Shown: piece after piece, positions 20,517 through 52,524 of the stretch | Layout: each line of letters starts with the position of its first letter | Numbering within the stretch: the first letter of the stretch is position 1 | Source of the DNA: Leptotrichia massiliensis | Lineage (GTDB): Bacteria > Fusobacteriota > Fusobacteriia > Fusobacteriales > Leptotrichiaceae | Reading direction: 5' to 3' | DNA: 64,000 nt | NCBI RefSeq assembly: GCF_900104625.1 | Contig: NZ_FNVZ01000005.1 | Location: 1,116,001-1,180,000, forward strand | The notes under the pieces: generated by a model | Told to the model about the DNA's origin: nothing | Database searches by the model: none | Seen by the model: the letters and a program-made list of their open reading frames with translations, nothing else | Program-made: the position numbers and the translations under genes

Positions 20517-20954
20517 TTAAATCTCCACTGCAACTTCACTTTTTAAATCAACTTCCATTTCCAAAAACTTTTTCCAGCCCTCAAAGATCTTTCTATATTC
20601 TTCAAACTTACATTCCCACAGTGGATATTCCTCACAAATCCCAAACATTGTATTCTCAAATTCAACTTTTTCCTTATTAATCTTATGCTGAAAAGCCTGT
20701 CCATCCCAAAGAGTTTCCTGCACTTTTCCAGTTTCAACTTTTTCTAGCTGTGGCAAAAAAATATTAATTATTTCCACATCTGGAAAATCTTCCATTATTC
20801 CAGTTATTAGATATTTTGTATACTCTTCTTTCTTTTTTTCTAAATGTTCACTTCTTTTATTTTTTGTTATTTTTTTTTCAGAAAATGTTATTTCTGGAAA
20901 TGCAGTCAATCCAAAATCTTCATCGTAATAATAACTAAATTTTATAATCATCAT
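20517..20954 (-). CDS. Acidic protein, candidate immunity partner of the EndoU-like nuclease
   Basis: Unrecognised 145-residue protein without signal peptide. It has about 31 acidic and 21 basic residues, the acidic bias expected of a protein that binds a basic nuclease. It starts 26 bases after the EndoU-like gene on the same strand, the usual place for an immunity gene. Function is inferred only from position and charge. A GGATGA ribosome-binding site precedes two adjacent ATG codons. If real, it would protect the cell's own RNA in the cytosol. Confidence 0.55.
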   Translation of the reverse strand: MMIIKFSYYYDEDFGLTAFPEITFSEKKITKNKRSEHLEKKKEEYTKYLITGIMEDFPDVEIINIFLPQLEKVETGKVQETLWDGQAFQHKINKEKVEFENTMFGICEEYPLWECKFEEYRKIFEGWKKFLEMEVDLKSEVAVEI

Positions 20955-20980
20955 TTCATCCTTTCTAAAAATTTCAGTTT

Positions 20981-21601
20981 CTAACGATTTTCATAAACTG
21001 GATAAGCCGTTATTCTAGGACTTTTGTAACCACGAATTACAACTCCGCTTTTGCTGATTCCTTGCCACATGTTATTATCTCTGCCTTTGACATCTTTTCT
21101 ATTTTCCCATGCTGAGTTTATTTCGTCAATAATTCTCGCTTCATCCCAGTTTTCTGGAAACATCGTATTTACTCCACCATTAGAAGTTTTTGCCTGCCAA
21201 GTTCCATCTTTTTTCTTAACTTCAATGCTCGCTCTGTACACTCCATTTTTAGCTGGATTACCAATTTTTTTCACAATTCTCACATCTCCACGCAAAAGAG
21301 AATGTCCGCCAGTAACCTTGCCTTGCGAATTTTCATCTCCACCAATTACATGATCATAATCAATTTGATATTTTCTATTTCCTTGGTTTGAAGTATTTTG
21401 AGTCCGTTTTCCATTTTTATTTTCTATATTTTTCTGTTTAACAGCATTTTTTTTGCCATTTTTCTTATTTTGTGCAATAAATTCTTTTGAAAAATTTTCT
21501 TTTGCATTTATACTGTTATTTCTGCTTAGATAAATTTTTCCAAGTCCAAATAAGATAATAGCAAATAACAGTAATATTTTTAATATTTTATTTTTACCCA
21601 T
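20981..21601 (-). CDS. EndoU-family nuclease with N-terminal membrane anchor
   Basis: A 206-residue protein with a hydrophobic helix (about 7-25), a basic low-complexity linker, and a C-terminal domain (80-206) matching bacterial EndoU, an RNase fold used as a contact-dependent or secreted toxin. The catalytic set can be placed: H84 in 'DYDHVIGG', H100 in 'GGHSLLRG', K138 in 'WQAKTSNGG', and Thr-x-Tyr (T198, Y200) in 'ITAYPVY'; 'MFPENWDEARI' is also typical. The N-terminus may be a signal anchor for export. The downstream acidic gene is a candidate immunity gene. Housekeeping RNA processing is an alternative. Confidence 0.8.
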   Translation of the reverse strand: MGKNKILKILLLFAIILFGLGKIYLSRNNSINAKENFSKEFIAQNKKNGKKNAVKQKNIENKNGKRTQNTSNQGNRKYQIDYDHVIGGDENSQGKVTGGHSLLRGDVRIVKKIGNPAKNGVYRASIEVKKKDGTWQAKTSNGGVNTMFPENWDEARIIDEINSAWENRKDVKGRDNNMWQGISKSGVVIRGYKSPRITAYPVYENR

Positions 21602-21703
21602 TTATAGATTTCCTCCTTTTTTATATGCTTATTAATTATATCAAACTTATATTTTAAAATCAATATTGTAAATTTTTCTAAATTTAATAATTATGATAAA
21701 ATG

Positions 21704-22806: not shown

Positions 22807-23565
22807 TTACAAATATTTTAATATCTCACGCTTGTATTCAATAAATTTTTCAGACATTATAATTTCTTCATTATTATAGCCCTTGTTCTGACTATTTTTC
22901 AAGTCAACATTTATTTGTGCAGCAATTTTACCTGGACTTCCTGCCAAAATATAAATTCTGTCGGAAAGCAGTATCGCCTCATCAATATCATGGGTAATAA
23001 ACAGAGTTGACATTTTAATTTTGTTCATTATGTTCAGATACCAGCTATGAATTTTATGCTTTGTAATGGCGTCCAATGCGCTGAAAGGCTCGTCAAGAAG
23101 AGCAACTTCGCTGGAAAATAAATATGTTCTAAGCAGTGCCGCCCTTTGCTTCATTCCCCCTGATAGTTTACTTGGATACAAATTTTCCGTACCTTCCAAT
23201 CCAAAATCTTTAAAATACGGTTTTGCAATTTCCCGTGCCTTATTTTTATTTTCACCCCTTATCACAAGTGGAAGCGCCACATTGTCAATAATTTTTTTAT
23301 GAGGTAAAAGCAAGTCTTTTTGCATCATGTAACTTATTTTTCCAGATTTTCCAGTTATATCTTCTCCATTCATTTTCACATTTCCACAATCAGGCTTTAA
23401 AAGTCCTGCAATAATGTTAAATAATGTTGTTTTCCCAGCACCGCTCACTCCTAAAATGCAAACCAGCTCATTTTCATACAAATCAATCGAAACATTTTCC
23501 AAAACTTTTTTATTTTCAAAAGAAATGGAAATATCTTTTATTTCAAGCTTTTTGTCTTTCTTCAC
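22807..23565 (-). CDS. ABC transporter ATPase of a thiamine-precursor importer (ThiZ-like)
   Basis: A 252-residue ATP-binding subunit of the nitrate/taurine/pyrimidine importer type. Walker A is 'LGVSGAGKTTLF' (about 36-47), the signature 'LSGGMKQRAALLR', Walker B 'VALLDEPFSALD', and the switch histidine is in 'LFITHDID'. It starts with GTG, preceded by AAAGGAG. It is the last gene of the TPP-riboswitch operon: MTH1187-type protein, permease, substrate-binding protein, ATPase. By that context it powers uptake of HMP or another thiamine precursor. Confidence 0.88.
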   Translation of the reverse strand: MKKDKKLEIKDISISFENKKVLENVSIDLYENELVCILGVSGAGKTTLFNIIAGLLKPDCGNVKMNGEDITGKSGKISYMMQKDLLLPHKKIIDNVALPLVIRGENKNKAREIAKPYFKDFGLEGTENLYPSKLSGGMKQRAALLRTYLFSSEVALLDEPFSALDAITKHKIHSWYLNIMNKIKMSTLFITHDIDEAILLSDRIYILAGSPGKIAAQINVDLKNSQNKGYNNEEIIMSEKFIEYKREILKYL

Positions 23566-23592
23566 TTAATATTTCTCCTTTTGATAAATTTT

Positions 23593-24567
23593 CTATTTCA
23601 GATACTCGTTACTATATCCAAAATCCTTTGGTATTTCACGCTCTACAGCCTTATTTTTGTAAAGCCATTCATAAAATCTGTTCCAACGGTTTCCATCGAT
23701 TATTCCCCATTCTTTTGCATCAGACTGGTATTCTTTAGAAATCCACTTTTGGCTGGCTGTTACTAAATTTATGTCAAGCTCTGGAGAATTTTTTACCAGA
23801 ATTTTTGCTGATTCCTCTGGATTTTTCATTGCGTATTCATACCCTTTTTTTATTGCCTTCAAAACTTTTTTTGCAATTTCAGGATTTTTTTTCAGAAAGT
23901 CATTATTTGCGATAATTACAGGGCTGTAATAGTCAAGTTCTTCTCCATAGTCACGAATTTTTAGAAAATTTGTCTGAAGCCCTGCCCTTTCTGTAGCAAT
24001 TCCATCCCACGCATAATAAACCCAGACAGCATCAACATCAGTCTTTAAGCCAGTTACAACATCTGTTATAGTATAAGGAATTAATTTTACTTTAGAAAAA
24101 TCACCTTTATCATCTGTTACTAATTTTTTCAAAATAGCCTGCTCAATATTATCTTCCCAAGTGGCATATTTTTTACCTTCCAGTTTTTTTGGCGAGTCTA
24201 TTCCTTTTTCCTTCAATGAAATAATTCCAGATGTATTATGCTGAAGAATTGCAGCGACAGCTGTTACTGGTACAGGATTCTCCTTTGCAAATGATTTTGC
24301 CAATGTATCCTGAAAACTTATTCCAAATTCTGCTCCTCCAGCTCCAATAAGTGCCGTTGTGCTCCCTTCAGGCGGCTGCACAATTTCCACATCCAGTCCT
24401 TCTTCCTTAAAATATCCCAAGTCTTTTGCCACATAAAGCCCTGTATGATTAGTGTTTGGCACCCAGTCCAGTACGATTTTTATTTTCTGATTATTTTTAG
24501 ATTTTCCACACGAAACAGCCAAAACCAAGATTAAACATAAAATTAAAATTTTTGAAATTTTTTTCAT
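23593..24567 (-). CDS. Substrate-binding lipoprotein of a thiamine-precursor importer (ThiY-like)
   Basis: A 324-residue lipoprotein: residues 1-20 end in the lipobox 'LAVSCGK'. The mature part is an NMT1/THI5-like periplasmic fold, beginning 'IVLDWVPNTNHTGLYVA' and containing 'GAEFGISFQDTLA' and 'DAVWVYYAWDG'. Members bind formylaminopyrimidine, HMP or other thiamine precursors. It lies between permease and ATPase genes in the operon headed by a TPP riboswitch, consistent with ThiXYZ. The exact ligand is not fixed by sequence. Confidence 0.88.
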   Translation of the reverse strand: MKKISKILILCLILVLAVSCGKSKNNQKIKIVLDWVPNTNHTGLYVAKDLGYFKEEGLDVEIVQPPEGSTTALIGAGGAEFGISFQDTLAKSFAKENPVPVTAVAAILQHNTSGIISLKEKGIDSPKKLEGKKYATWEDNIEQAILKKLVTDDKGDFSKVKLIPYTITDVVTGLKTDVDAVWVYYAWDGIATERAGLQTNFLKIRDYGEELDYYSPVIIANNDFLKKNPEIAKKVLKAIKKGYEYAMKNPEESAKILVKNSPELDINLVTASQKWISKEYQSDAKEWGIIDGNRWNRFYEWLYKNKAVEREIPKDFGYSNEYLK

Positions 24568-24616
24568 TTTTTATACCTCTCTTTACTTTTTATTTTAAAT
24601 TTTTTTATTTAAAAAT

Positions 24617-25372
24617 TTACTTTTCCCAAACCATGCACCATTTCTGTATTTTTTTTACAAGATACATAAGCAGCAAGCTTATTGCAGAAATAAGAAAAAT
24701 TACCGCAAACATCTTATCAAATGAATACGATTTTCTGACTCTTGTCATATAAACTCCAAGTCCGCTAAATCCACCGAGCCATTCAGCTACAACTGCTCCA
24801 ATTATCGAATATGAAACTGAAATTCTAAGCCCTGCGAAAAAATATCCTAATGAACCTGGCAATTTGATATGAATAAAGTTCTGAAATGGCTTTGCTCCCA
24901 TCGTTTTTAACAAATTCAACATATCCTTGTCAGCCGAACGAAATCCATCTAGAAGCCCAATAGTTATAGGGAAAAACGAAGTCATAACAATAAGCGTAAT
25001 CTTTGGCAATATTCCATATCCCAACCAAAGTACCAAAAGCGGTGCAATCGCAACTGTAGGTATTGTCTGAGTAATAACCAACACAGGATAAATCATTTTG
25101 AACGCATACTCAAACCTGTCCATAACAACCGCCACGGCAAAGCCCATGATTATTCCCAGACCAAGCCCCAAAAATGCTTCAAGCAAAGTAATTTTTGTAT
25201 GCTCCATAAGCAATGGAAAATCATAAACAAACGCTTTTACAACTTCAAATGGCGACGGCAGCATAAATTTTGGAATAATATTCACCATTGACAAAATTTG
25301 CCAAATTATCAATAATACAGTAATAATAATACTTGGTGCAATTTTATCTGTTATATTTTGAAATTTTTTCAT
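24617..25372 (-). CDS. ABC permease of a thiamine-precursor importer (ThiX-like)
   Basis: An inner-membrane permease of 251 residues with about six helices; the coupling-loop EAA motif is near 'LLKTMGAKPFQNFIHIKLPGS'. It belongs to the SsuC/TauC/ThiX permease group. The ATG at 25372 is chosen over an upstream TTG, and it overlaps the preceding MTH1187-type gene by 29 bases, so translation is likely coupled. With the binding protein and ATPase downstream it forms one importer under TPP control. Confidence 0.88.
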   Translation of the reverse strand: MKKFQNITDKIAPSIIITVLLIIWQILSMVNIIPKFMLPSPFEVVKAFVYDFPLLMEHTKITLLEAFLGLGLGIIMGFAVAVVMDRFEYAFKMIYPVLVITQTIPTVAIAPLLVLWLGYGILPKITLIVMTSFFPITIGLLDGFRSADKDMLNLLKTMGAKPFQNFIHIKLPGSLGYFFAGLRISVSYSIIGAVVAEWLGGFSGLGVYMTRVRKSYSFDKMFAVIFLISAISLLLMYLVKKIQKWCMVWEK

Positions 25373-25655
25373 CAATCTTTAAAATATCTCCTTTCGGTTT
25401 ATAATTTATTTTTACATACGACATTACACCCTCAGCCCCCGCCTTCACAGCCACAACTTGACATTCCTTCACAATTTCCATAAGCTCGTCAAAATCTCCT
25501 TCTACCGTTGTTTCAAATGGAGCAACATTCATTTTTAACCCTTTGCTTTTAATAAATTCAATAACTTCATCAACAACTCTTACAATTTCCTCATTTCCCA
25601 CAACATTTGGCAATACCTGAATTGCAATACTCGCATTAATTTCTTTTTTTTCCAT
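25344..25655 (-). CDS. Thiamine-binding MTH1187/YkoF-type protein
   Basis: A 103-residue ferredoxin-like protein of the PF01910 (MTH1187) family, several of whose members bind thiamine. 'ASIAIQVLPNVVGNEEIVRVV' region at the start and 'VAPFETTVEGDFDELMEIV' are characteristic. It is the first gene after the TPP riboswitch and overlaps the permease start. It may bind the imported pyrimidine or thiamine in the cytosol, as YkoF does in the YkoEDCF system; this is inference. Confidence 0.85.
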   Translation of the reverse strand: MEKKEINASIAIQVLPNVVGNEEIVRVVDEVIEFIKSKGLKMNVAPFETTVEGDFDELMEIVKECQVVAVKAGAEGVMSYVKINYKPKGDILKIDEKISKYNR

Positions 25656-25738: not shown

Positions 25739-25814
25739 ATATTTCTATAAATTTTCTAAAATAATTTAAAAAGATATGCAAAATAACTTTAAAATTATTC
25801 CTTATTTTATATAA

Positions 25815-25890
25815 AATACTCCCTCCGACAGCATTACCTGTACAGGTTATATGGGTTTAATTCTCAGCAAAATTGCTCCCCAGTATTTTT
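25815..25890 (-). ncRNA. TPP riboswitch (THI element)
   Basis: The minus strand carries the conserved thiamine-pyrophosphate aptamer: CTGGGGAGC, then GCTGAGA, AAACCC, ACCTGTACAGGTAATGC and CGGAGGGAG, in the right order and spacing. When TPP binds, the terminator at 25707-25738 should form and switch off the importer operon. It is preceded on the same strand by an unrelated lipoprotein gene. Confidence 0.93.
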
Positions 25891-25924
25891 TGTTAAATTG
25901 TCTAAATTTTTTTAAAACTTTTAA

Positions 25925-52250: not shown

Positions 52251-52271
52251 TAATTTAGAAATAAATTTAAA

Positions 52272-52402
52272 GCTTCAGGGCAGGGCGAAATTCCCGACCG
52301 GTGGTAAAGTCCACGAGTTGTTTTTATTTTAAATAAAATGAAAACGACATGAACTGGTGTGATTCCAGTACCGATAGTTATAGTCTAGATGGTAGAAGTG
52401 AA
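52272..52402 (+). ncRNA. FMN riboswitch (RFN element)
   Basis: The conserved aptamer is unmistakable: GCTTCAGGGCAGGGCGAAAT, CCCGACCGGTGGTAAAGTCCACGA with a variable arm, TGAACTGGTGTGATTCCAGTACCGATAG, TATAGTCTAGATGGTAGAAG. It precedes ribH, ribD, ribE and ribBA, and should lower their expression when FMN is plentiful. The expression platform contains a terminator at 52525-52562; CATCTACC (about 52507) can pair with GGTAGA at the aptamer's 3' end. Confidence 0.96.
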
Positions 52403-52524
52403 ATTGTTGGCTGTTTAAAATTAGTTTTTGATTTAATTGTGTTTTATATGCAATATTTTAAAATAATTTTGATACATTCAGCATTAATTAAATTATATTA
52501 TATATCATCTACCTTTTAAATATC

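Follow-up and report, generated by a model that had tools for sequence, protein, structure and literature searches.

Barnase and barstar are a small exported RNase and its acidic cytosolic inhibitor. Barnase shares the BECR fold with EndoU nucleases (PMC3482391, excerpt), some of which act as bacterial toxins with dedicated immunity proteins. For example, the CdiA-CT/CdiI pair of E. coli STEC_O31 (PDB 5HKQ) consists of an EndoU nuclease and its cognate immunity protein, where the nuclease is carried at the end of a very large CdiA exported by two-partner secretion, relies on a His-His-Lys triad and cuts tRNA-Glu (PMC9086364, excerpt). Similarly, MafB of Neisseria is a secreted EndoU toxin and uridylate-preferring RNase that is blocked by MafI, the product of a specific immunity gene immediately downstream (PMC4287609, excerpt), and is built from a signal peptide, an N-terminal MafB domain and a variable C-terminus (PMC3482391, excerpt). 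Polymorphic toxins carry diverse, recombining C-terminal domains, and in the excerpt of Zhang et al. that covers them EndoU is accompanied by Imm-SuFu, Imm28 and SUKH partners, with DUF5376 not seen among these (PMC3482391). Few EndoU toxins have been tested in bacteria (BC_0920, MafB, CdiA-CT STECO31 and CdiA-CT GN05224; PMC9990079, excerpt), and those tested are antibacterial or confer a competitive advantage (PMC9990079 and PMC4287609, excerpts). Literature searches on Leptotrichia combined with EndoU, contact-dependent or polymorphic toxins returned nothing on the pair described here among the papers listed, and one on DUF5376 returned no paper, most subscription journals lying outside the coverage of both.

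The window analysed here, a 64,000-nucleotide stretch of the Leptotrichia massiliensis genome, contains two adjacent genes (Table 1) that resemble barnase and barstar in organisation, although the nuclease and inhibitor families differ; neither the PF00545 nuclease nor the PF01337 inhibitor was found in the window proteins or in the 21 genomes searched. As in STEC_O31, an EndoU nuclease is paired with a putative cognate immunity protein, but the nuclease is a 206-aa anchored protein rather than the tip of a CdiA, and as in Neisseria the candidate immunity gene lies immediately downstream, whereas an anchor, a linker and a fixed nuclease stand in place of the MafB domain and variable C-terminus. 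With respect to the hallmarks of polymorphic toxins, N-terminal trafficking domains and repeats are absent and Pfam finds only EndoU in the 206 residues; the C-terminal toxin domain is not variable, being at least 72% identical across all pairs of 19 orthologs; and a probable cognate immunity gene, judged by homology and context, is located directly downstream. The EndoU-tipped toxins of Leptotrichiaceae (loci L092, L093 and L095) likewise have a related immunity gene within about 40 bases, but are large proteins whose EndoU domain is 31-36% identical to that of the window. As far as our searches show, the short, anchored, fixed and vertically inherited format and its link to DUF5376 are undescribed.

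Table 1 Features of the EndoU gene and its downstream neighbour, in positions of the 64,000-nucleotide window
Feature	Position	Strand	Basis
EndoU gene, 206 aa (anchor, basic linker and EndoU_bacteria domain)	20981..21601	-	ORF, Pfam, 19 orthologs
EndoU_bacteria domain	20996..21355	-	Pfam profile limits
Domain residues H84, H100, K138, T198, Y200	21350-21352, 21302-21304, 21188-21190, 21008-21010, 21002-21004	-	Invariant in 19/19
Hydrophobic segment at the N-terminus (residues 6-21), probably a signal anchor that is not cleaved	21539..21586	-	Hydropathy; cleavage and topology inferred
Variable Lys/Asn-rich linker, 58 residues, net +12	21365..21538	-	Charge count, orthologs; fast-evolving
Shine-Dalgarno GGAGG, 10 bases 5' of EndoU ATG	21612..21616	-	Read from sequence
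Putative immunity (inhibitor) gene, 145 aa, acidic, without signal or TM segment	20517..20954	-	ORF, orthologs, relatives beside EndoU, model

The 206-aa protein is, on strong sequence grounds, an EndoU-family nuclease, and would be expected to have RNase activity. The first-pass annotation had recognised an EndoU pattern in it and proposed a profile search, which matched PF14436 (EndoU_bacteria) at residues 83-202 (profile positions 6-128 of 129, 93.8 bits against a cut-off of 25.3, E 1.4e-26). The five residues it had named were correctly placed and are conserved without exception in the orthologs, and T198 and Y200 are ones that we take to be catalytic. H84, H100 and K138 are named catalytic after the His-His-Lys triad of the STECO31 toxin (PMC9086364, excerpt). 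A PF14436 search of the organism's own 2.54-Mb genome found this single EndoU. The structure model of the protein was poor (pLDDT 48.7) and unusable for fold search.

A membrane-anchored basic linker ahead of the domain had also been proposed, and both a hydrophobic segment (mean Kyte-Doolittle 2.72) and a basic linker are indeed present, with anchoring itself suggested by hydropathy. The Shine-Dalgarno motif, at a distance of 10 bases from the ATG, makes translation of the anchor very likely. The strongest 16-residue hydrophobicity (2.34-3.17) lies near the N-terminus in 19/19 orthologs, in which the linker spans 46-80 residues with a net charge of +1 to +13, and no conserved signal peptidase site was seen by eye in the 19-ortholog alignment. 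The charge of the N-terminal flank equals or exceeds that of the C-terminal flank in all 19 orthologs (strictly greater in 14), which points weakly to an outward-facing EndoU domain. A basic linker behind such a segment is not what an exported protein usually carries, and would speak mildly against easy export.

The neighbouring gene, 26 bases downstream, encodes an acidic 145-residue protein (net charge -10), as first described, in which a hydropathy scan found no hydrophobic segment. Translation may in fact begin at the second ATG (position 20951), since most orthologs start at M2. Thirty-one positions are invariant in an alignment of 19 sequences, five of them acidic (D13, E55, D56, D84 and E109). 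The initial impression that this protein lacks relatives was mistaken, as both orthologs and distant relatives were found by profile search. Pfam and NCBIfam gave no direct family match, and NCBIfam naming returned nothing above its cut-offs. A structure model built with five sequences is mixed alpha/beta (pLDDT 82), and a Foldseek search of it against the PDB returned nothing at E 0.001 (best E 0.21), while a sequence search of solved structures gave no credible match, including to any solved immunity protein. On VIA realignment of the model, 5hkq_I, the immunity protein of the STEC_O31 EndoU toxin, ranked 8 of 668 chains (Z 5.2, rmsd 4.6, 93 residues) and was tied with unrelated viral polymerase rows, which makes it a suggestive hint and not proof; the top of that list comprises the type VII chaperones LcpA/SIR_0168 (Z 6.8 and 6.6) and parts of viral polymerases, into which no meaning is read. 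No terminator-like site was found.

The distribution of the pair was examined in 100 genomes, including the organism's own (13 from its genus, 20 from the same family outside the genus and 67 others). Orthologous adjacent pairs were present in 19 genomes, comprising all 13 Leptotrichia and 6 of the 20 same-family genomes outside the genus (genera g6, g8, g10 and g11; absent from 14), with none in the remaining 67. A scan of a genome-contig collection also located the pair in L. hongkongensis JMUB5056, Leptotrichia oral taxon 879 and two Leptotrichiaceae MAGs. Throughout the 19 orthologous pairs, which span five genera, the EndoU gene comes first and the neighbour follows, separated by -4 to 45 bases in 18/18 relatives (overlapping in five); chance proximity is ruled out by this constant adjacency and order. 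In 12/12 genus relatives, one or more of the genes that flank the pair in the window remain close by, while the flanks differ at all six loci outside the genus, so that the two genes travel together over long range and are inherited vertically within Leptotrichia. Divergence of the EndoU protein correlates with that of its partner (Spearman 0.78 for 19 orthologs and 0.90 for 24 pairs), a correlation that shared ancestry alone would give. Carriage as mobile or phage cargo was considered and rejected, as no match was found in two viral contig scans or in searches of the EndoU protein against phages, the neighbour against plasmids and the DUF5376 protein of L095 against plasmids and phages. A known defence system was likewise rejected, with PADLOC silent for the four proteins tested.

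Sequence relationships indicate that the neighbour is very probably the inhibitor of the EndoU protein, because its distant relatives stand right behind EndoU domains, or what is left of them, that form the ends of haemagglutinin-type toxins, and because DUF5376, into which these relatives grade, itself follows EndoU at most of the places where it exceeds its cut-off. Searching with a profile built from nothing but the 19 orthologs recovers L080 (E 2e-16) and L081-L089 (7e-15 to 2e-10), with remoter matches at L092 (3.9e-6 and 1.8e-4) and L094 (1.3e-3). For example, the L092 gene (9504..9989) lies immediately behind a 2131-aa protein that has haemagglutinin repeats and ends in an EndoU domain, close to an ORF that carries a TPS domain of two-partner secretion, and the relative at L080 likewise follows directly after an EndoU domain. 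Across the 100 genomes, a PF14436 match lies within 200 bases upstream at 24 of the 36 immunity-family places, and a more sensitive six-frame scan recovered C-terminal EndoU remnants at five more (L081, L082, L084, L085 and L094), leaving seven with neither a domain nor a remnant upstream. Viewed from the nuclease, 28 of 35 EndoU rows are followed directly by a gene of the immunity family or of DUF5376; counted by domain the figure is 28 of 34, since two G045 rows are one domain. The six domains without such a partner all belong to genus g9, where another immunity family would take its place. In the six-frame scan, the imm3 and endo2 profiles include sequences from the scanned loci, and E-values for those loci were therefore taken from other searches; the A3 profile was built from 21 of the sequences that the A3 search then finds.

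Several of these loci have peculiarities of their own. L080 (13414-16247 on G017:C1) contains two tandem EndoU/immunity remnants with frame breaks, an apparent toxin-tip graveyard. A near-identical 71-aa ORF stands just before an orphan immunity gene at 5/5 loci, none with EndoU upstream (L083 9505-9720, L086 10194-10409, L087 10153-10368, L088 10006-10221 and L089 10280-10495), and is possibly another immunity gene or a toxin remnant. Among the g9 EndoU domains (L133, which is G027:C1:466000-481000, L096 and L134), three lie within 8.2 kb in one genome.

At L095, L093 and L090, the proteins that follow EndoU belong to the Pfam family DUF5376 (E 2.4e-42, 3.4e-39 and 1e-9, respectively). DUF5376 exceeds its cut-off at seven places in the 100 genomes, five of them at most 40 bases downstream of EndoU; the two others comprise one at a contig end (G029:C142) and an orphan in the organism's own genome. 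A DUF5376 profile recognises the relatives at L092 (4.4e-8) and L080 (5.2e-5), and the A3 immunity-family profile aligns with L093 with a probability of 90. The window neighbour itself gave no match to DUF5376 (PF17346) up to E 1 and no significant one when compared directly with L095 (probability 2), and the best values against DUF5376 for 2 of 21 immunity-family members, E 0.0014 and 0.0032, were below the cut-off. The neighbour's relatives appear to grade into DUF5376, to which the window protein would be linked transitively through L092. Searches for DUF5376 in other phyla (0/1 and 0/101) were uninformative, their controls being silent. The orphan DUF5376 gene, located outside the window on the forward strand (G000:C5:275738-276172, L131 9239-9673; E 2.1e-23), has no EndoU upstream and is trailed by small ORFs resembling immunity arrays.

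Selection on the pair was estimated as pairwise NG86 dN/dS against nine close relatives, with proteins below 80% of query length dropped; all comparisons share the window sequence and are therefore not independent. Values for the EndoU domain were 0.01-0.04 in 9/9 comparisons, against 0.14-0.71 for the anchor and linker and 0.21-0.57 for the neighbour. The flanking genes, each compared in the subset of relatives that keep it nearby, gave 0.02-0.06 (FabV), 0.07-0.10 (CorA), 0.05-0.08 (ABC ATPase) and 0.02-0.09 (substrate-binding protein), while the SDR rows of L070 and L064 (31-32% identity) represent a different gene. The nuclease domain is under purifying selection like a metabolic enzyme, and its partner drifts. 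Such low values, in a domain that is not polymorphic, make a role as an antagonistic toxin less certain than the pairing of enzyme and inhibitor.

The stand-alone, anchored EndoU nuclease and immunity pair proposed in the first-pass annotation is the best-supported reading of the locus, given the homology of the neighbour and the EndoU context of its relatives. We consider it likely, with good confidence, that the locus encodes an anchored EndoU nuclease with a DUF5376-related cytosolic inhibitor, as a barnase-barstar-like operon fixed in Leptotrichia and some sister genera, and in our reading it is an RNase-inhibitor pair that passes vertically and was assembled from polymorphic-toxin parts. 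In the mechanism we propose, the two-gene operon would produce a tethered EndoU endoribonuclease and an acidic cytosolic inhibitor. The former would insert through its uncleaved N-terminal anchor, which would probably leave the catalytic domain at the outer surface of the inner membrane, held off from the tether by the long basic linker. The inhibitor, a putative member of a DUF5376-related superfamily of EndoU immunity proteins, would bind the EndoU domain and block its RNA-binding active-site face until export, or whenever active EndoU is in the cytoplasm. The enzyme itself would serve either against other bacteria or as an RNase of the envelope or the extracellular space. Direct inhibition, export topology and the use of the enzyme are inferred here, and the inhibitor assignment is independent of how the nuclease is used.

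Two uses of the pair, antagonism and a resident envelope role, were weighed nearly equally. If the anchored EndoU domain is displayed or shed towards other species while its neighbour protects the producer, a use we rate somewhat short of even chances, the targets would have to be members of other genera, since nearly the same pair is present in every Leptotrichia genome searched. Kinship with the EndoU tips of two-partner-secreted haemagglutinin toxins and with their immunity genes fits such antagonism, as do the effects of the EndoU toxins tested so far (PMC9990079 and PMC4287609, excerpts), and orphan EndoU/immunity remnants show that warfare of this kind occurs in the same genus. However, the protein has no delivery module, and a non-polymorphic domain with such low dN/dS in 13/13 genus genomes implies that no killing within the genus is expected. 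A housekeeping RNase of the envelope or of secretions, serving RNA scavenging or biofilm RNA turnover with an inhibitor that only shields the cytosol, is a tentative alternative that would accord with purifying selection equal to that on metabolic neighbours, with the conserved flanking genes in all 12 genus relatives and with the single EndoU of the genome. Its weaknesses are that the partner's close relatives accompany toxins, that absence from 14 of the 20 same-family genomes of other genera marks the pair as not essential, and that position is its one link to anything nutritional.

An orientation towards the cytoplasm, as a membrane-anchored toxin-antitoxin or phage-defence module, is unlikely; the basic linker could keep the domain inside, and toxin and inhibitor are encoded together, but PADLOC found no match for the four proteins, the locus is a stable core one in the genus, and the viral and phage searches that were run gave no match. 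It is very improbable that the two genes are unrelated neighbours of which the smaller has another function. The lack of a direct family match for the small protein and its much faster evolution relative to the nuclease would be compatible with this, but the 19/19 adjacency over five genera, in unconserved flanks at the six loci outside the genus, and the recurrence of distant relatives beside EndoU speak against it. Building on the preferred RNase-inhibitor pair, a bolder proposal, which we regard as possible but doubtful, is that Leptotrichia has domesticated a toxin-immunity cassette into a core membrane-tethered RNase and inhibitor with a constitutive envelope function, a frozen nuclease and a drifting inhibitor, and that the whole DUF5376 superfamily is EndoU-specific immunity in this lineage. 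DUF5376, an uncharacterised Pfam family, and its divergent relatives gain from this work a testable function as EndoU immunity proteins, and a warfare cassette that now appears to be fixed throughout a genus of oral bacteria makes it possible to study how a polymorphic toxin turns into a resident enzyme.

Two riboswitches were observed elsewhere in the window. A TPP riboswitch (25803-25892, reverse strand, 65.4 bits) lies upstream of an ABC transporter/substrate-binding operon (22807-25655) that probably serves thiamine-precursor uptake, and an FMN riboswitch is located at 52267-52404 on the forward strand (100.7 bits).
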